Positions 1,325-38,392 of a stretch of 44,483 nt of DNA are shown piece by piece. The position numbers were made by a program, and so were the translations under genes. The notes below the pieces were generated by a model that saw only the letters and a list, made by a program, of their open reading frames with translations, did no database searches and was not told where the DNA came from. Source of the stretch: a virus; IMG/VR virus record IMGVR_UViG_3300021425_002114, positions 1 to 44,483 of that record, one strand, 5' to 3'. Position 1 is the stretch's first letter, and the number at the start of each line of letters is the position of its first letter.

Positions 1325-1331
1325 TATTTAG
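1325..1331 (-). promoter_or_regulatory. Possible late promoter of the protease gene
   Basis: The minus strand reads CTAAATA here, a form of the T4-like late promoter box, 12 bases before the protease ATG. It overlaps the stop codon of the upstream fibre gene. The leader would be very short, so this is tentative. Confidence 0.35.
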
Positions 1332-3448
1332 AGATTTATAATTGAAACCATGATATCCCCAAGGTTCAGTGGGTCCTCATTCCATCTTCTAGGAACAAAT
1401 ACAACATTGTCAGTATTTCTTTCAATACCAATCTGTGCGCCATTAGCAGAAACCCAATCAGTACCATCATAACTAGCATGAACAATGTAATCAGTTCTTG
1501 CCGAGTATGCTGTTGGGAATGTCAGTGTATAAACTTCATCGCCCCCACCGCCGCCAGAATGAGCAACTGTATATCCAGAAGTTCCAGTCCATGTTGGAGA
1601 ACTTCCATTTAGATTAATATATCCAGTGGCAGCAAATGTATTACTACCAATACCAGAAAGACCAACACCAGAACCAACAAATTGCGTAGCAGTTACTACA
1701 CCAGTGACTTGAATTCCTGTAGAATTAATTGTTTGGCCTGCACCAACTATAGATTCACCTACGGTTAGACTTGTACTTATTGCAACGGTGATGGCATTAA
1801 TATTTAAATTATTCGGAGAGTCAATAGTTGGTGTTCCTGCAGTTTGACTTTCAAATCTAGTTGCAGTCACAACCCCAGAAAAATTACCATCCCCAATAAC
1901 AGTAAGAGCATCTGTAGATAACTCTGTCCCAATACCTACGTTCTTACTTGTATGAATACCAGAAACGTTTACTGCCCAAGTTCCAGCAGATCCAACAACT
2001 CCACCACCTGTCCCTTCTGGACCTTGAATACCTTGAATACCTTGAACAGTAGCATCACTGCCTTGACTACCAGTAGTACCCTGTGATCCAGTAGTACCCT
2101 GAGTTCCAGTTGCAGTAAATCCTTGTGTACCAGTGAAACCTTGAGTACCAGTAGTTCCTTGAACGCTTAATCCATCGGTACCTTGTATTCCCTGAAGTCC
2201 ATCGGTACCTTGTGGTCCAGGATTTCCCGTAAGTCCAATAGCTCCCGTAGAACCTTGAGGACCAGTAACATTACCGACATCATCCCAACTTCCCCCATTC
2301 CACACCCATAGATGTCCGGTATCAAGGGTTATGTATCCATCACCAACTCCTCCAAGATATGCACCCGGCCAACCAGGTAATGCGGTTGAAGTTGGTACAG
2401 ATCCTTGAATTGTTACGGATGATCCCGCTGGTCCTGTAGTACCTTGAATCCCATCTAAACCTTGAGTTCCTTGAATACCTTGTAATCCAAATCCATCAGA
2501 ACCTTGAGTTCCATCCGATCCCTGAATTCCATCAGTACCTTGTGTACCATCAGCACCCTGGAAACCAGAACCTGTAGTTCCCTGAAGACCATCCGTTCCT
2601 TGAGTACCTGTAGTACCTTGAGCACCATCAGTACCTTGAGTACCGTCAGAACCCTGTGATCCCGTTATACCTTGAGTGCCTTGAGTTCCAGCACCAGTAG
2701 AACCCTGAATTCCATCGTTGCCTTGTGATCCAGGTAGACCTTGGATGCCTTGTTCGCCAGTGGTTCCCTGTGGACCATCAGTGCCTTGAGTACCGTCATA
2801 TCCCTGTGATCCCTGAAGAGCTGCTTCTCCAGAAAGGCCTTGGAGGCCTTGAAGTCCTGGATCTCCTTGAAGACCATCATCTCCTTTTGGACCATCAGTT
2901 CCTTGAATTCCCTGAATACCCTGACCACCAGAACCAGAAATACCCTGAATTCCCTGAAGACCTTGGGATCCAGAACCAACAGCAAATCCAGGTTCTAATG
3001 ATATATCTATTCTATTACTTCCATATACAGATCCAGCTACTATTCCATCAGTGAAATTTAATTCACTTGCAACACCTTTTCTTACACTATCATCAAGTAT
3101 TTCTAAACCAACACCAGTTGCAACAACGTTCTCTAACTGACTTCCATCTCCTCTAAATGAAACTGCAGTAATAATTCCTGTTGAAGTTATATTTGTTACT
3201 TCAATGTGTTCTGTTGTTGTTATTCCTGTGTTTAATATCCCACTTACTTGAATTGTAGGACTTCCAGTTAGATTCTCCGATAGCGTTGAAATTCCAGAAG
3301 TGTTTGCATAACTTACTATGTTTTCTCCATCTCCAAGTACATTATATACTTCCTGAAAGTTACTATTGATTTTTCCCATTGCTCTTCGCAATGAGTCTCC
3401 TTGGCCATCATTTGGATTTGTACCAGTATTAATTCCAAGTCTGGACAT
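1328..3448 (-). CDS. Collagen-like virion fibre/structural protein
   Basis: This protein has 706 residues. The N terminus (MSRLGINTGTNPNDGQGDSL, then a predicted helix with RRAMGKINSNFQEVY) is of a kind common at the start of cyanophage structural proteins. The middle (encoded at about 2020-2990) is dominated by Gly-X-Y triplets such as GIQGTDG and GLQGLQG, interrupted by a module around WVWNGGSWDD. The C-terminal part carries beta-rich GVVTATRF-type repeats and a poly-Gly turn. Collagen-like triplets form trimeric stalks, so a trimeric tail or fibre component is likely. Part of the C-terminal half (TPTIDSPNNLNINAI, about 1790-1850) matches a segment of the giant protein gene at 42365-42425, so the two share modules. 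The start is supported by a late promoter motif 29 bases upstream. Confidence 0.85.
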   Translation of the reverse strand: MSRLGINTGTNPNDGQGDSLRRAMGKINSNFQEVYNVLGDGENIVSYANTSGISTLSENLTGSPTIQVSGILNTGITTTEHIEVTNITSTGIITAVSFRGDGSQLENVVATGVGLEILDDSVRKGVASELNFTDGIVAGSVYGSNRIDISLEPGFAVGSGSQGLQGIQGISGSGGQGIQGIQGTDGPKGDDGLQGDPGLQGLQGLSGEAALQGSQGYDGTQGTDGPQGTTGEQGIQGLPGSQGNDGIQGSTGAGTQGTQGITGSQGSDGTQGTDGAQGTTGTQGTDGLQGTTGSGFQGADGTQGTDGIQGSDGTQGSDGFGLQGIQGTQGLDGIQGTTGPAGSSVTIQGSVPTSTALPGWPGAYLGGVGDGYITLDTGHLWVWNGGSWDDVGNVTGPQGSTGAIGLTGNPGPQGTDGLQGIQGTDGLSVQGTTGTQGFTGTQGFTATGTQGTTGSQGTTGSQGSDATVQGIQGIQGPEGTGGGVVGSAGTWAVNVSGIHTSKNVGIGTELSTDALTVIGDGNFSGVVTATRFESQTAGTPTIDSPNNLNINAITVAISTSLTVGESIVGAGQTINSTGIQVTGVVTATQFVGSGVGLSGIGSNTFAATGYINLNGSSPTWTGTSGYTVAHSGGGGGDEVYTLTFPTAYSARTDYIVHASYDGTDWVSANGAQIGIERNTDNVVFVPRRWNEDPLNLGDIMVSIINL

Positions 3449-3535: not shown

Positions 3536-5065
3536 ATGGAAGGAAAGGATCTTCAGAGTCTAATGGAGACTTACTTAAAGATGAATGAAAGCGTTGAATT
3601 ATTAAATGAAATCGATGCGGATGAAATGGGGACACCATCTCTCGCTTCTAGAAATGCTGCATCTCAACGCGAGAATGAAGCAAAACTAAAAAGACTTAGA
3701 GCACAGAGAGATCTATCTGGTAGACCTCCAGTTGCAAACCTTCCATCAAACTTAAAATCTACTGAACAGGGAGCAACTGCTGCTGGTATGAGAGTTGCTG
3801 GTAAAATGGCAGACATCAGAGGAAGTCAAACTCCTGGAAGTCAAACTCCAAAGACTACTTCTACAACTTCATCTTCACCAAGACCATCTGGAAGTTCATC
3901 AAAACCTGCTGCTCCTGCTAAACCATTTGTAAAGCAGACTGGTGATAAAGCAAAGGATATGGCAACATGGGCAAAGGCAAATCCAAAACTTGCTGCTGCC
4001 GCTGCTGAGAAATCAAGAATCCGTGGTACTCAACAGACTGACAATCCTCTCATGAAAGACATGAGATCAAAATTGCCAATGAACTCACCTTCAGTTCAAT
4101 CACCTGCAGTTGCTAAATTAGGAGCAGGACATCAATCATTAGTTAAGAATCCAAACGCATTTAAAGCTGCTCCTCCAAAACCTGCTGCTAAACCAGCATC
4201 AACTCCTGCTGCTAAACCAGCATCAACTCCTGCTGCTAAACCAGCATCAACTCCTGCTGCTAAACCAGCAAAACGGACTCCCACACAAATCAGACAGGGA
4301 ATCTATTCAGGTGTAGACATCTTTGATCTCGTCAAAGGATACCTTCTAGATGAAGGTTATGCAGAGACTGAAGAGAATGCACTTGTAATCATGACAAACA
4401 TGAGTGAAGAGTGGAGAGATGAGATTGTAGAACGTTACAAGGGCAAACACGGACAGTCCTCTGACGAATACAAGAGAGACCGTTCTCCTGGTGGTAAGAT
4501 GGTTTCTGGTGATGACAAACAATCTGGTGCCGAATACACCCATGGTCGTAGAGTTAAGGCAGAAAATCCTGGTTCTCAACCTGACGAAGGTGGTAAGACC
4601 AAACCAAAGTCCCAAGGTAAGATGGACAAGGGAACTCGTGCAGATCTTGAGTATCGTAAGGCAAACCTTAAGAAAGAAGAAGCTGAGTATGTAGACGAGA
4701 ACCGTCGTGCTGCTCGTTCTGCTGGTGGTTATAAAGATGACTCTGAGGGTCAACCAGATCCTTCCAAGGACGGATTCACTGGTATTGGTAAGATGAGCAT
4801 CAAAGATATCATGGCACTCAACAAGAAAATCGAAGCTCGCAAAGCCAAAAAAGAGGAAACTCAAGTAGAAGGTGATCAGATTGATGAGGTTCTAGGTGGA
4901 CAAGCTGGAGACGGATACATCGGTCACCCAAGACTCGGTATCAAGAATCCAATGGCTAAGAAACAAACAAATACAAATACCTCCTCAAATACTGGAATCG
5001 CTGGTAAACTAGGAAACAGAGCATCTCAAATGGATGCCGCAATGAAGGCAGCAAGAGGTCAGTGA
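3536..5065 (+). CDS. Putative virion structural protein with AKPASTP repeats
   Basis: This 509-residue protein matches no enzyme family I know. Residues 1-80 are charged and helical (LNEIDADEM), followed by a low-complexity Ser/Thr/Pro/Ala region and an Ala-Lys-Pro-Ala-Ser-Thr-Pro repeat at about residues 216-245. A folded segment follows (YSGVDIFDLVKGYLLDEGY, then an acidic helix with NMSEEWRDEIV), and the C terminus is Lys/Glu-rich. The FDLVKGYLLDEGYAETEENAL type of segment recurs in cyanophage structural genes as I remember them, but I could not search for it. No Shine-Dalgarno sequence stands out; Met10 is an alternative start. A strong hairpin terminator follows directly, closing the structural block. 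Structural role: moderate confidence. Confidence 0.6.
   Translation: MEGKDLQSLMETYLKMNESVELLNEIDADEMGTPSLASRNAASQRENEAKLKRLRAQRDLSGRPPVANLPSNLKSTEQGATAAGMRVAGKMADIRGSQTPGSQTPKTTSTTSSSPRPSGSSSKPAAPAKPFVKQTGDKAKDMATWAKANPKLAAAAAEKSRIRGTQQTDNPLMKDMRSKLPMNSPSVQSPAVAKLGAGHQSLVKNPNAFKAAPPKPAAKPASTPAAKPASTPAAKPASTPAAKPAKRTPTQIRQGIYSGVDIFDLVKGYLLDEGYAETEENALVIMTNMSEEWRDEIVERYKGKHGQSSDEYKRDRSPGGKMVSGDDKQSGAEYTHGRRVKAENPGSQPDEGGKTKPKSQGKMDKGTRADLEYRKANLKKEEAEYVDENRRAARSAGGYKDDSEGQPDPSKDGFTGIGKMSIKDIMALNKKIEARKAKKEETQVEGDQIDEVLGGQAGDGYIGHPRLGIKNPMAKKQTNTNTSSNTGIAGKLGNRASQMDAAMKAARGQ
4181..4270 (+). repeat. 24-bp tandem repeat coding for AKPASTPA
   Basis: Three perfect 24-base units start at 4181, 4205 and 4229, followed by a partial fourth unit. 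They encode an Ala-Lys-Pro-Ala-Ser-Thr-Pro-Ala linker inside the structural protein. The exact nucleotide identity between units suggests recent slippage or recombination. Confidence 0.9.
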
Positions 5066-5085
5066 TATAAAACTTGAAGTTTTAG

Positions 5086-5111
5086 GAGTCCGCTTGACGG
5101 ACTCTTTTTTT
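5086..5111 (+). terminator. Rho-independent terminator
   Basis: The perfect 7-bp stem GAGTCCG/CGGACTC has a CTTGA loop and is followed by seven T. It lies 20 bases after the stop of the structural gene. The loop and 3' arm also carry a sigma70 -35 box. Confidence 0.9.
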
Positions 5112-5122
5112 ATGGTTACAAT
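5094..5122 (+). promoter_or_regulatory. Sigma70-type promoter inside the terminator
   Basis: TTGACG (5094-5099), a spacer of exactly 17 bases, and TACAAT (5117-5122). The -35 box lies in the loop and 3' arm of the terminator hairpin. It would drive the SegE-like gene and those after it early in infection. Confidence 0.65.
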
Positions 5123-5142: not shown

Positions 5143-5150
5143 GATAAATA
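5143..5150 (+). promoter_or_regulatory. Late promoter motif upstream of the SegE-like gene
   Basis: GATAAATA differs by one base from the T4 late consensus TATAAATA and lies 26 bases before the ATG at 5176. With the sigma70 promoter just upstream, it suggests both early and late expression. Confidence 0.5.
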
Positions 5151-5175: not shown

Positions 5176-5622
5176 ATGAGTTGTGACTATGAGAATCCCT
5201 GGATATATGGCGACAAATATTTTACTACTGATGATATTGGGGACTACTTCGGTTTTGTTTATCTCATTACCAATAAGTCCAACTCACGACGTTACATTGG
5301 TCGAAAGTATTTTTGGTCGTTTCGGAAACCAAAAGGAAAAAGCCGCAGAGTAAAACAAGAATCCGATTGGAAAAAGTATTACGGATCTTGTCCAGAATTA
5401 AAAGAAGATATTAAAAAGTACGGAAAACAGAACTTCCAACGTTATATTTTGTCACTACATAGTACACTAGGAAAAGTAAACTATGAGGAGACCCGTCAAT
5501 TGTTTGCAATGAACGTCCTCACGGAATCACTTGACAATGGGGAACCCGCATACTACAATTCTAATGTTCTCGGTCGTTACTACAGGAAGGACTATTTTCA
5601 TGGAACAGGAAATGATGAATGA
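5176..5622 (+). CDS. SegE-like GIY-YIG endonuclease
   Basis: This 148-residue protein carries a GIY-YIG nuclease core: FVYLI at about residues 27-31 (the GIY strand), RYIGRK at 39-44 (the YIG strand plus the Arg that follows), and an acidic helix NYEETRQLF that supplies the likely metal-binding Glu. Lys/Arg-rich segments between them suit DNA binding. Stand-alone GIY-YIG enzymes of the T4 Seg type are homing or site-specific endonucleases that spread their own genes, and SegE-like versions are widespread in cyanophages. The start overlaps the stop of an upstream 6-codon ORF (TAATG). The gene lies just after a terminator/promoter and before the lysozyme group. A good internal sigma70 promoter lies near its 3' end. 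Confidence 0.8.
   Translation: MSCDYENPWIYGDKYFTTDDIGDYFGFVYLITNKSNSRRYIGRKYFWSFRKPKGKSRRVKQESDWKKYYGSCPELKEDIKKYGKQNFQRYILSLHSTLGKVNYEETRQLFAMNVLTESLDNGEPAYYNSNVLGRYYRKDYFHGTGNDE
5531..5559 (+). promoter_or_regulatory. Intragenic sigma70-type promoter
   Basis: TTGACA, a 17-base spacer, and TACAAT (5554-5559) lie inside the 3' end of the SegE-like gene, 40 bases before the small gene at 5600. It could transcribe the small gene and the lysozyme separately from segE. Confidence 0.5.
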
Positions 5623-20682: not shown

Positions 20683-21193
20683 TAATTACATTTATGTAAA
20701 AGAAAAATCCCTGACTAAAGATCAATGTGATTCTGTAATTGAATACATTAACAGTTCCCGTACATCTTTTGCTAATTTTTATTTCGGACATTTCCCTTGT
20801 GTGAGTACAACACCACATCAATTTCTAATAGATATTGTCCAAGAAAATGTCAATCGGTATGTCGAGGAACATAAGTTTCTTAAAACATTATGTTCTCCCT
20901 GGGGAATTTTTGAACATTATAATTTACAGAAGTATTTGCCTGGTCAAGCTTACCACCCAGAACACATGGAACATGGTAAAGACGAAGATAGTAAAAGACT
21001 TCTTGCTTGGATGATTTATTTGAATGATGTTAAAGATGGTGGGGAAACTTACTGGCCTCAACAAAACTTCAAAAAATCTGCAAGAGTAGGCGATCTTTGT
21101 ATTTGGCCAGCCGGATGGACTCATAGTCATTATGGAATAGTTTCTAAAACTGAATATAAGTACATTGTCACTGGATGGTGTGCATTTTTATAG
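20669..21193 (+). CDS. 2OG-Fe(II) oxygenase, prolyl 4-hydroxylase type
   Basis: This protein has 174 residues from the ATG at 20669. The core follows prolyl 4-hydroxylase-like phage oxygenases: a YHPEHMEHG segment (His96 and Glu98 or nearby as iron ligands), LAWMIYLNDVKDGGETYWPQ, GDLCIWPAGWTHSHYGIVS (distal His152 or 154), and EYKYIVTGW with Lys164 as the likely 2-oxoglutarate-binding residue. The usual HxD is HxE here, an accepted variant in this superfamily. Such genes are common in cyanophages. The substrate could be a protein or a nucleotide and is unknown. It ends 21 bases before the structured RNA region. Confidence 0.8.
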   Translation: MSETDNYIYVKEKSLTKDQCDSVIEYINSSRTSFANFYFGHFPCVSTTPHQFLIDIVQENVNRYVEEHKFLKTLCSPWGIFEHYNLQKYLPGQAYHPEHMEHGKDEDSKRLLAWMIYLNDVKDGGETYWPQQNFKKSARVGDLCIWPAGWTHSHYGIVSKTEYKYIVTGWCAFL

Positions 21194-21213
21194 TCCCGGA
21201 GTGACTATAAACC

Positions 21214-21284
21214 TGCCCTGGTCGGGATGGTCAACAGACCCTCGCGTTTCCTAGTTCGTAAAACTAGGTGGTGGAGTCATCCCC
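21214..21284 (+). ncRNA. Structured RNA, copy 1 of tandem pair (candidate wcaG motif)
   Basis: This GC-rich, gene-free segment begins TGCCCTGGT-CGGGATGG. Elements in order are hairpin GGTC-AACA-GACC (21229-21240), a CGTTT linker, hairpin CCTAGTT/AACTAGG (21250-21268), and GGTGGAG. A long-range pairing of GGGAT (21224-21228) with ATCCC (21279-21283) closes the unit. The same order recurs in copy 2 with changed but still paired stems. It lies upstream of a GDP-sugar epimerase. The wcaG RNA motif is known from cyanophages upstream of such genes and of hli genes, so it is the likeliest identity, but I cannot check it against the covariance model. Confidence 0.6.
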
Positions 21285-21314
21285 AATATGCCCGTCGCGG
21301 ACAGACGTTAATTG

Positions 21315-21394
21315 TGCCCTGGTGCGGATGGGGTTAACCCCGCCGAGTTTCTTGTTTTCTCGTACTCAAAACAAGTGGCGAGCCTGCAATACCC
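21315..21394 (+). ncRNA. Structured RNA, copy 2 of tandem pair (candidate wcaG motif)
   Basis: TGCCCTGGT-GCGGATGG repeats the start of copy 1. It is followed by hairpin GGGG-TTAA-CCCC (21330-21341), a CGAGTTT linker, hairpin CTTGTTTT/AAAACAAG (21351-21375), and TGGCGAG. Both hairpins keep pairing while their sequences differ from copy 1, which is what conserved RNA structure predicts. The intercopy stretch (21285-21314) can itself form CGTC/GACG. A terminator hairpin follows 13 bases later and the GDP-mannose epimerase gene 84 bases later. Confidence 0.6.
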
Positions 21395-21406
21395 AAATAT
21401 ATTATT

Positions 21407-21436
21407 AAAGAGAGGTTGCATAAACCTCTCTTTTTT
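21407..21436 (+). terminator. Terminator between the tandem RNA and the glycan operon
   Basis: The 11-bp stem AAAGAGAGGTT/AACCTCTCTTT has a GCATA loop and runs into a T-tract (21431-21436). It could end the RNA transcript constitutively or act as the off switch of a riboswitch-like leader. Confidence 0.85.
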
Positions 21437-21444
21437 AGTATACT
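21416..21444 (+). promoter_or_regulatory. Sigma70-type promoter inside the terminator
   Basis: TTGCAT (21416-21421, in the hairpin loop), a 17-base spacer, and TATACT (21439-21444). This is the same terminator-promoter overlap as at 5094 and 38133. It would drive the glycan operon without passing through the tandem RNA. Confidence 0.55.
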
Positions 21445-21477: not shown

Positions 21478-22536
21478 ATGAGTCAATATACTAAGACAGC
21501 ACTTGTACTTGGTGCTGGTGGCTTTATTGGAAGTCATATGGTTAAACGCCTTCGTTCTGAAGGTTATTGGGTACGTGGTGTAGACCTTAAGTATCCAGAG
21601 TATTCTGTAAGTGAAGCAAACGAATTCATCCGTGGTGATCTTCGTGATGTTAATTTTGTTCGTCGTTGCATTCGTTATGCTGGGCCTTACAATAATTTCT
21701 ACGCACAAATCGTAGACAAGTTCCTAGAACCCTTTGATGAAATCTATCAGTTCGCTGCTGATATGGGTGGTGCAGGTTTCGTTTTCACTGGAGAGAACGA
21801 TGCAGACATCATGCACAATTCAGTCTCTATTAACTTAAATGTTCTTGATGAACAACATAAGTTGAACGAAACCAAGGGTGTAAATAAGACTAAGATTTTC
21901 TATTCTGGATCTGCTTGTATGTATCCAGAGCACAATCAACTGGATCCTGACAACCCCGACTGCCGTGAAGAATCCGCATACCCCGCTAACCCCGATTCCG
22001 AATACGGATGGGAAAAACTATTCTCTGAGCGACTTTATTTTGCATACCATAGGAATTATGGTATTCCTGTTCGTGTTACCCGTTATCACAATATCTTTGG
22101 GCCAGAGGGAACCTGGGACGGTGGAAGAGAAAAGGCACCAGCTGCAATCTGCCGTAAAGTCGCTCTCCTCCCAGAGGACGGTGGATGCATCGATGTGTGG
22201 GGAGACGGCCTACAAACTCGTTCCTTCCTGTACATTGACGAATGCATTGAAGCGTCTAGACGACTGATGGACTCCAACTTCATTGGTCCTGTCAATATTG
22301 GTTCCGAAGAGATGGTTACTATTAACCAACTCGTTGAGACTGCTGCTAAGGTTGCAGGTAAGAACGTAGAGAAGAATCATATTGATGGTCCTCTAGGTGT
22401 TCGTGGACGCAATTCCAACAACGATGTAATCCGCAGAGAACTCGGTTGGGATTATCAACAGACTCTTGAAGAGGGTATCCGTAAGACATACAATTGGATC
22501 AGTGAGCAAATTTATTCAAAAGAGAACAACAAATGA
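21478..22536 (+). CDS. gme: GDP-mannose 3,5-epimerase
   Basis: This 352-residue extended SDR protein has a glycine motif GAGGFIG (12-18). Its motifs are those of plant GDP-D-mannose 3',5'-epimerase: AADMGGAGF, SGSACMYPE, YGWEK, RYHNIFGPEGTWDGGREKAP, WGDGLQTRSF, IDECIEAS, VNIGSEEMV and GVRGRNS. The residues Tyr176/Lys180, Cys147 and Lys219 sit at a constant offset of two from the Arabidopsis catalytic set as I remember it (Tyr174/Lys178, Cys145, Lys217), so it should be active. The product would be GDP-L-galactose (or GDP-L-gulose). It heads the glycan operon behind the tandem RNA and is ATGA-coupled to the radical SAM gene. Confidence 0.88.
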   Translation: MSQYTKTALVLGAGGFIGSHMVKRLRSEGYWVRGVDLKYPEYSVSEANEFIRGDLRDVNFVRRCIRYAGPYNNFYAQIVDKFLEPFDEIYQFAADMGGAGFVFTGENDADIMHNSVSINLNVLDEQHKLNETKGVNKTKIFYSGSACMYPEHNQLDPDNPDCREESAYPANPDSEYGWEKLFSERLYFAYHRNYGIPVRVTRYHNIFGPEGTWDGGREKAPAAICRKVALLPEDGGCIDVWGDGLQTRSFLYIDECIEASRRLMDSNFIGPVNIGSEEMVTINQLVETAAKVAGKNVEKNHIDGPLGVRGRNSNNDVIRRELGWDYQQTLEEGIRKTYNWISEQIYSKENNK

Positions 22537-36507: not shown

Positions 36508-37312
36508 TTTAGAAAAAGCAACATTTATTGTACCTATTCGCATTGAGTCTGATGATAGACTTAGAAATGTTATTACAATAGTAGCATTTTTGCTTGAAAA
36601 CTTTAATACGAATATCATCATAAAAGAAGTTGATTCTTATTCTGTATTTCAGGAGAAAGCAGTTCCTATTTTAAAAGAAATACTTGAGGAAGATATTAAT
36701 GTAAAACATATTTTTCATAAAGATGATAAACCTTTGTTCCATCGACAAAGAGTTTTGAATGAGATGATTATGGAATCAGATACTGAAATAGTCGTTAATT
36801 ATGACTGTGATGTGTTGCTTCCAATTTATTCTTATTATCATGCTTATGAATTGATTTTGAATAAAACATATGATATTGTATATCCATATTCTGAAGGAAT
36901 GTATCAATATCAAGTAAAGGCAGATGACGAAGTAGTTTCTGAATTTTTGCAGGATTATAATTTTTCTTGCTTGGATAAAAATTCAAATTTACATACTTCT
37001 GATTTTGGTTGGGTTCAATTTTTCAATCGTCAAGTTTATATTGAAGGTGGTATGGAAAATGAAAACTTTAAAGCATATGCACCAGAGGATAAGGAAAGAT
37101 TTTACAGATATAATACTTTAGGGTATAATGTGGGAAGAGTAGATGGATATGTCTATCACTTAGAACATATAAGGGGGCAGAATTCCTGGTTTAATAATCC
37201 ACATATGGATATTAATATGAGTGAATGGGATAAGATTCAGAAAATGAACAAAGAACAACTTTTAGATTATTACCAAAAGCAATTTTATTTGAAAAAATAT
37301 GGACAAAAATAA
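36497..37312 (+). CDS. GT-A glycosyltransferase with galactosyltransferase-like C terminus
   Basis: This 271-residue protein has an N-terminal FIVPIRIESDDRLRNV block, a DCD metal motif (IVVNYDCDVLLP, Asp103/Asp105), and a C-terminal part (YAPEDKERFYRYNTLGYNVG, then VYHLEHIRG) like the galactosyltransferase C-terminal domain (Glyco_transf_7C) where the ED and HxxH residues contact acceptor and metal. It starts 11 bases before the end of the GT2 gene. Confidence 0.75.
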   Translation: MKINLEKATFIVPIRIESDDRLRNVITIVAFLLENFNTNIIIKEVDSYSVFQEKAVPILKEILEEDINVKHIFHKDDKPLFHRQRVLNEMIMESDTEIVVNYDCDVLLPIYSYYHAYELILNKTYDIVYPYSEGMYQYQVKADDEVVSEFLQDYNFSCLDKNSNLHTSDFGWVQFFNRQVYIEGGMENENFKAYAPEDKERFYRYNTLGYNVGRVDGYVYHLEHIRGQNSWFNNPHMDINMSEWDKIQKMNKEQLLDYYQKQFYLKKYGQK

Positions 37313-38084
37313 ATCTGCGTATAAACTTCAAGGTATTCCTCCCATTTATTATTTGAACTTGGATGGTCAGGAAGATCGAAGAGAATACATGGAATCTCAG
37401 ATGAAATACTGGGAGATTGGAAACTATGAACGTATTTCTGCATACGATGGCAGGTTTGACGATCTTAGTGATATTATCAAGGGCAAGTATCCAGAAAACA
37501 TGACTTCTGGTGAGATTGGTTGTACTACCTCTCACCTCAAGGCAATCAAGCATTGGATGGAAACATCTGATTCTCCATGTGCTATTTTTATGGAAGATGA
37601 TGTTGACCTTCAAATTGTTAAGAATTGGGATTTTACTTGGAAAGATTTTTATGGATTAATTCCATATGACTATGATGTCATACAGTTAGCGATAATTTGC
37701 ACTGGCCCACTTCATGTTACCTTACACAAAAGGTTTGTTAATGATTTTTCTACTGCTGCATATATGATCACTCGTCATCATGCGGAGAAACTACTTAGAC
37801 ATCATGTTCGTGGAGATAAGTATAAGTTGGATCAAGGTATTAAACCTCGTGCAGTTGCAGATGATTTGATTTATAATTCTGGAAATACTTTTTCTATCCC
37901 CTTATTCTTATATAAAATTTCTTTGGGTTCATCTATTCATCCAGAACATGTTGATTTGATTCACAGGCAAAATTATAATGGACTTCTGGAGCATTGGCAA
38001 AGAAAAGGTCCAGACATGGATATCAAAAGTCTTATGAATTATGATCCATATCTAGGAAGAATTACAGAAAATCCTCCAGGATAA
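37299..38084 (+). CDS. GT25-family glycosyltransferase
   Basis: This 261-residue protein has PIYYLNLDGQEDRREYM (residues 15-31) and the family 25 middle blocks EIGCTTSHLKAIKHW and AIFMEDDVDL (EDD metal motif at 99-101), then FSTAAYMITRHHAEKLL. GT25 enzymes are beta-galactosyltransferases of lipooligosaccharides and are found in many large phages. It is the last gene of the glycan operon, followed by a terminator 40 bases downstream. Confidence 0.85.
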   Translation: MDKNKSAYKLQGIPPIYYLNLDGQEDRREYMESQMKYWEIGNYERISAYDGRFDDLSDIIKGKYPENMTSGEIGCTTSHLKAIKHWMETSDSPCAIFMEDDVDLQIVKNWDFTWKDFYGLIPYDYDVIQLAIICTGPLHVTLHKRFVNDFSTAAYMITRHHAEKLLRHHVRGDKYKLDQGIKPRAVADDLIYNSGNTFSIPLFLYKISLGSSIHPEHVDLIHRQNYNGLLEHWQRKGPDMDIKSLMNYDPYLGRITENPPG

Positions 38085-38123: not shown

Positions 38124-38151
38124 AAGAGGTGCTTGACACCTCTTTCTTTTT
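38124..38151 (+). terminator. Terminator of the glycan operon
   Basis: The perfect 8-bp stem AAGAGGTG/CACCTCTT has a CTTGA loop and is followed by a T-rich tail. It has the same CTTGA loop as the terminator at 5086. The -35 box of the hli promoter is inside the hairpin. Confidence 0.85.
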
Positions 38152-38161
38152 GCTATATAAT
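38133..38161 (+). promoter_or_regulatory. Perfect-consensus sigma70 promoter for hli/peroxiredoxin
   Basis: TTGACA (38133-38138), a 17-base spacer, and TATAAT (38156-38161). The -35 box is in the terminator loop and 3' arm. The hli ATG follows 28 bases after the -10 box. Confidence 0.85.
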
Positions 38162-38188: not shown

Positions 38189-38392
38189 ATGACCGTAACA
38201 ACTAATGACCGTGGTCAAATGAATATGTGGGCGAAGGAACCCGAGATGGTTTACCAAGAGTATAACCGTAAAGGTCTCCTGACCCCCATGCAAATGACCG
38301 AGATGTATAATGGTCGTTGGGCAATGATGGGCATCATCTTTGGTGCTGTATCTTACCTCGCCACTGGCAAACTTTTCTTTGGAATTTTCTGA
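38189..38392 (+). CDS. hli: High-light-inducible protein (Hli), first copy
   Basis: This protein has 67 residues from the ATG at 38189; the longer upstream frame would run through the promoter. The chlorophyll-binding helix carries the Hli signature as EMYNGRWAMMGIIFGAVSYL (residues 38-57), with the Glu and Asn ligands and Arg spaced as in the family. Hli proteins sit in the thylakoid membrane and protect photosystems, so phage copies are thought to keep photosynthesis going during infection. The expected expression is early, from the perfect promoter. It pairs with a second hli gene 14 bases downstream. Confidence 0.92.
   Translation: MTVTTNDRGQMNMWAKEPEMVYQEYNRKGLLTPMQMTEMYNGRWAMMGIIFGAVSYLATGKLFFGIF

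Follow-up and report, generated by a model that had tools for sequence, protein, structure and literature searches.

Predicted intrinsic terminators nested around host-type promoters at gene junctions of cyanophage genomes

We found three gene junctions in a single viral DNA at which a terminator-like hairpin encloses the -35 box of a promoter that leads into the next gene. The window, by which we mean the whole stretch of DNA analysed here, is the IMG/VR virus record IMGVR_UViG_3300021425_002114 of 44,483 bases, and its top nucleotide matches are cyanomyoviruses, chiefly S-SKS1. Comparison with related loci makes it very probable that these are nested terminator/promoter elements, in which the downstream gene possesses the promoter, and a terminator has formed about its -35 box where the upstream gene is co-directional. 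A preliminary description of this DNA had proposed that one compact element would end one operon and start the next; this proposal is well supported by the comparative evidence, from which we infer that the hairpin terminates transcription and that the promoter fires in infected cells. Such elements would represent a recurrent compact regulatory unit of abundant marine viruses. They occur beside genes for photosynthesis and other auxiliary functions (hli, psbA) and follow a simple rule, namely that the terminator surrounds the promoter mainly where the neighbouring gene reads in. Because terminators and promoters are predicted independently of each other in standard annotation, nested ones are easily missed.

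On direct reading of the sequence, the hairpins previously noted at 5086, 21407 and 38124 are all present, each of them encloses the -35 box, and the spacer between the -35 and -10 boxes is 17 bases at all three sites. Two of the loops were said to be identical, and CTTGA is indeed seen at 5093-5097 and 38132-38136. The further claim that every hairpin carries a sigma70 -35 box holds for TTGACG and TTGACA, but is weak for TTGCAT, which matches the consensus at three of six positions. All three hairpins have the GC-rich stem and the following U tract of intrinsic terminators, with folding z-scores of -3.0 (5084 site), -7.0 (21408 site) and -2.7 (38124 site). Hairpin search yielded four convincing intergenic terminators on the plus strand of the window (5084, 21408, 38124 and 39085), and three of the four are composites with a promoter. 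The boxes are those of a host sigma70-type promoter, that is, TTGACA-like and TATAAT-like sequences about 17 bp apart, with a weak -35 at the 21.4-kb site.

The first junction follows a gene at 3536-5065, whose candidate intrinsic terminator, AGGAGTCCG(cttga)CGGACTCTT plus a T tract, was located by hairpin search and folding on the plus strand at 5084-5111. The stem arms at 5084-5092 and 5098-5106 flank the loop, and the -35 box TTGACG (5094-5099), with relatives in L162, L163 and L177, occupies the loop and the loop-proximal 3′ arm; the -10 box TACAAT, which is TATAAT in L177, lies at 5117-5122. The downstream gene (5176-5622, plus strand) encodes a SegE-type GIY-YIG endonuclease-like protein (Pfam PF19835, E 4.5e-53), and the best PHROG of this protein, phrog_447, bears the name “NAD synthetase,” which looks wrong here. 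The same end of the window also holds, on the minus strand at 1328-3448, a 706-aa ORF with collagen triple-helix repeats. Following the -10 box, the motif GATAAATA is found on the plus strand at 5143-5150, and it resembles the T4 late promoter consensus TATAAATA associated with gp55/gp33/gp45 (PMC1524935). It follows the early -10 at 18-20 nt in 10/10 composites of this locus (among them L162, L163, L173, L174, L177, L184, L185, L190, and L206), a fixed distance in every relative found, whereas its background frequency is 0.006 per 60 nt. It is a separate downstream element and is absent from the 21.4-kb and 38.1-kb sites. The 5084 locus can thus be read as a putative triple element, in which some 70 bp would contain a terminator, an early-type promoter and a late-type promoter. 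In three other places (L139:442, L173:9360, and L176:1100), the T tract of a UUCG terminator passes directly into TATAAATA or AATAAATA, an arrangement that may be the counterpart of the composite for late promoters.

The preliminary description had suggested scanning cyanophage genomes for such overlaps, and held that the lack of an excess in related phages would speak against its reading; an excess is in fact seen, and comparison of terminators with control windows indicates that the overlap exceeds chance. TTGAC in or beside the loop, with a -10 box at 16-18 bp, was found at 11/168 intergenic terminators from 11 cyanomyovirus isolate genomes, against 25/3696 displaced windows (0.7%) around those same terminators (binomial p 3e-8; this and the other p-values given here overstate independence because the loci are related). 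Under a looser criterion the count was 65/375 terminators in related contigs vs. 2.2% of control windows, a sample biased by the fetching of contigs via genes of the window. The strict TTGAC criterion yields just 0-3 composites per cyanophage isolate genome, with none in Syn9, P-SSM2 and S-CRM01, and strong promoters are mostly without a hairpin, so that the nested hairpin is optional. The same criterion gave 0/17 intergenic terminators in T4 and 0/30 in RB49. An origin of the composite in the host was also considered and rejected: under the looser criterion none was seen among 144 terminators of cyanobacterial loci, which had been fetched by a phage psbA query (a phage hli query returned no host relatives), and the T-tract promoter pattern had no match in five Synechococcus/Cyanobium-type genomes, a subset of hosts.

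At the 21.4-kb junction, the predicted terminator AAGAGAGGTT(gcata)AACCTCTCTT plus T tract occupies 21408-21436 of the plus strand (hairpin search, folding), its stem arms at 21408-21417 and 21423-21432 surrounding the loop GCATA at 21418-21422. The weak -35-like TTGCAT (21416-21421) spans the stem end and the loop, the -10 box TATACT lies at 21439-21444, and the downstream gene (21478-22536, plus strand) encodes an NAD-dependent nucleotide-sugar epimerase (PF01370 E 7e-35, phrog_540). Because the -35 is so far from consensus, the promoter call rests on the -10 box and on relatives that have TTGACA, TTTACA or TTGTAT in the corresponding position; most relatives of the epimerase locus have the hairpin, the T tract and a TATAAT-like -10, with TTGACA, TTGCAT, TTTACA, TTGTAT or TTGCAC in the -35 position. 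Directly 5′ of this composite lie two tandem copies of the wcaG RNA (RF01761) on the plus strand, one at 21291-21389 (58.4 bits), which passes the gathering score of 42, and one at 21189-21282 (39.0 bits), which falls just below it. The wcaG RNA has been proposed as a cis-regulatory riboswitch candidate (PMC2864571). Cyanophage epimerase genes usually have this RNA on their upstream side: it precedes the composite and the epimerase in 10/12 related contigs scanned, and in the window some 5-20 nt lie between its end and the hairpin. Given this proximity, the hairpin might serve as the wcaG expression platform, a regulated terminator for which the -10/-35 match is secondary, and we consider this reading possible for the 21.4-kb site, though less likely than a nested promoter. 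The aptamer-like domain is separate from the terminator and promoter and is absent at the 5084 and 38124 sites, and composites are common without it; moreover, TATAAT keeps a constant spacing to the hairpin in many relatives of the epimerase locus despite the varying -35, and an independent promoter 3′ of a regulated terminator would bypass the wcaG switch.

The dependence of the hairpin on its neighbour is best seen at the 38.1-kb junction, which separates a GT25 glycosyltransferase gene (37299-38084) from a gene for a high-light-inducible protein (hli; 38189-38392, plus strand; phrog_178 E 5e-26). Here the candidate terminator AAGAGGTG(cttga)CACCTCTT, followed by an interrupted T tract, was located on the plus strand at 38124-38150 (hairpin search, folding), with stem arms at 38124-38131 and 38137-38144, a consensus -35 TTGACA (38133-38138) in the loop and 3′ arm that is conserved across hli loci, and a consensus -10 TATAAT at 38156-38161. 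TTGAC-N17/18 with TATAAT or a close variant is present in nearly all of 59 distinct hli relatives, and in nearly every one the form is TTGAC-N17-TATA[AC]T. The hairpin, in several registers, is present in 26 and absent in 30 of 56 hli loci under a stricter rule, and a T5 run fills the spacer in 23/26 hairpin loci vs. 3/30 hairpin-less ones (Fisher 2e-9, relatedness uncorrected). On the downstream side, 53/53 loci form one homologous cluster, while the upstream side falls into 13 clusters. The upstream ORF is co-directional at 22/24 hairpin-bearing loci, and 17/19 loci with an opposite upstream ORF have no hairpin (Fisher 1e-4); orientation was that of the longest nearby ORF, with a check by eye at three loci, whose ORF lists confirm divergent neighbours. 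Eleven hairpin-less loci have a plus-strand upstream ORF, of which four have an ORF that extends to the -35 and four have another terminator-like hairpin further upstream; L055, also hairpin-less, has a conventional terminator just upstream. Pairing of the stem arms is above shuffles at T-run loci (21/5000), not in the remaining loci, and covariation at hli is modest (78% paired vs. a shuffle mean of 74%) because many stems consist of a G run and a C run. Since the presence of the hairpin tracks the upstream neighbour, the promoter would be that of the downstream gene, with the terminator fitted around it against incoming transcription, and the simplest reading is that hli owns its promoter and the terminator was added where read-in would occur.

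We therefore propose that the conserved core is a strong host-sigma70-type promoter, TTGAC-N17-TATAAT, belonging to the downstream gene. Where the upstream gene is co-directional, complementary bases flanking the -35 would form a terminator around it, such that the loop and the loop-proximal 3′ arm contain TTGAC while the spacer is taken up by the U tract. RNA polymerase arriving from upstream would make the hairpin and U tract and release its RNA just before the next -10, and host holoenzyme would then initiate the next operon within the same 40-45 bp. What the sequences themselves establish is the composite architecture, its recurrence, its exact and switching registers, and, at hli, its dependence on the upstream neighbour. 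Lying upstream of the predicted start, the hairpin can act only within the upstream transcript, and the downstream gene is co-stranded in 92/98 cyanophage composites. The most likely purpose would be to shield the gene that follows (hli, psbA, epimerase, endonuclease) against read-in at no cost in extra DNA, and insulation together with compactness explains all comparative patterns seen.

The preliminary description also suggested that occupancy by the hairpin or by polymerase could couple the two operons. A nested arrangement may allow the polymerase to be handed over, if a terminated enzyme that is still bound to DNA re-initiates 20-25 bp downstream and thereby couples the downstream gene to upstream traffic. 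RNA polymerase recycling after intrinsic termination is a known process able to link a terminator with an adjacent promoter: in single-molecule work with templates other than nested sites or cyanophage DNA, most intrinsic terminations leave the E. coli enzyme bound to the DNA, and in 37-55% of events it starts again from a promoter further downstream (PMC6978380; PMC6978322), and the composite places RNA release directly before the next -10. Such a hand-over is physically plausible and speculative, and we judge it unlikely, because the hli promoter is present without a terminator where the upstream gene points away, hence independent of incoming polymerase, and because insulation alone predicts the same pattern. 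Marginally less probable again is a fuller version in which the released, DNA-bound polymerase would pick up sigma and begin a new transcript no more than about 25 bp away, upstream traffic thereby supplying the downstream auxiliary metabolic gene, and in which host and phage sigma could make successive use of the 5084 junction, where a late-type promoter adjoins the nested pair. These junctions offer natural templates for tests of polymerase recycling at adjacent terminator/promoter pairs. In the papers searched we found no TSS or Term-seq data for a cyanomyovirus, and the S-PM2 RNA-seq paper has nothing about terminators.

The closest known kind of element is the PeSL (promoter-early stem-loop), a composite reportedly described in the T4-like phages RB49/phi1 and relatives by Arbiol et al. 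in 2010 and Comeau et al. in 2014, the latter under a title that calls the PeSLs of T4-like coliphages composite promoter-terminator motifs. Both elements combine a strong sigma70-like early promoter with an intergenic stem-loop taken as a terminator, and this combination is present at the window sites. However, the geometry is different, and membership of the cyanophage element in the PeSL family is not demonstrated. Among 19 RB49 (NC_005066) hairpins near TTGAC promoters, none encloses the -35; twelve lie within the spacer and have no U tract, four are T-tract terminators just upstream of the -35, and three are located around the -10. The cyanophage element instead carries the -35 within its loop and 3′ arm, with the U tract serving as the spacer, and none of the window sites has the RB49 placement, whether inside the spacer or immediately 5′ of the -35. 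At the twelve RB49 TTGAC promoters with a spacer hairpin (e.g., L382 and L383), the hairpin is perfect and fills the spacer (AGGGGATCggtGATCCCCT and similar). This comparison suggests that T4-like lineages reached such solutions convergently, with the hairpin placed around the -35 in cyanophages and in the spacer in RB49. PeSLs have reportedly been proposed to mediate gene-module shuffling in T4-like phages, and the joining of 13 unrelated upstream contexts to one conserved hli segment would agree with a hairpin that acts as a PeSL-like recombination hot spot, its transcriptional roles being incidental. We find this improbable, since stems differ strongly between loci, hairpin-less hli loci shuffle equally, and hairpin presence tracks the orientation of the upstream gene; in addition, PMC4503421 judged PeSL-mediated acquisition unlikely for the ORFanage region of S-PM2.

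The two functions share their bases in more than one way, and TTGAC is seen in the registers G(cttga)C, C(ttgac)G, TT(gaca)AA, TTG(acaa)CAA and CT(tgac)AG, always 17 bases from the -10. Such shifts at a fixed promoter point to a hairpin that was rebuilt around the promoter and not inherited as one block, and this register switching is stronger evidence than the covariation at hli. When all viral records of IMG/VR were scanned, without regard to genes, for the pattern TTGAC...TTTTT...TATAAT, the matches listed comprised 127 distinct sites, of which 87 have a spacing of 17, and a hairpin surrounds the -35 in 25/87 of these vs. 1/40 at other spacings, again among the matches listed (Fisher 3e-4). 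With a permuted -35 (TTCAG) the spacing peak is absent and a hairpin occurs in 8/119 of the matches listed; a second control with a scrambled -10 (TAATAT) was contaminated by TATAATAT, so the count was confined to sites that do not follow a TA. It is hardly credible that CTTGA is just a favoured terminator loop whose -35/-10 likeness arose by accident in AT-rich DNA: related contigs do have G(CTTGA)C and UUCG among their most frequent loops, but the promoter is retained at loci without a hairpin, and register switching, the spacing peak and its loss with the permuted -35 rule out both chance and loop stability.

Composites are also located beside other genes of annotated isolates: near hli in S-PM2, S-SKS1, S-SM2 and DSL-LC02, near psbA in S-SKS1 and just after psbA in Syn1, and near nrdC (P-SSM4), a cAMP phosphodiesterase gene (S-SM2) and hsp20 (S-RSM4). 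Similar nested hairpin/promoters are found as well in contigs of apparently non-cyanophage character (L540, L479, L496, L541, L516, and L539). One of these, L540, has weak similarity to PA5oct-like jumbo Pseudomonas phages, and L539, whose sole named match is RtcB-like, belongs to a 97-kb record with six T-tract promoter matches. As the nearest named matches of L540 and L539 are not cyanophages, the nested solution may have arisen more than once. One further composite, at L507:4635, lies immediately 5′ of the start of an apparent tRNA gene (GGCGTAGCTCAGT), and matches to the abiF RNA (RF03085) were observed beside tRNA arrays in two cyanophage contigs (L138:2722-2758 and L132:3283-3319).
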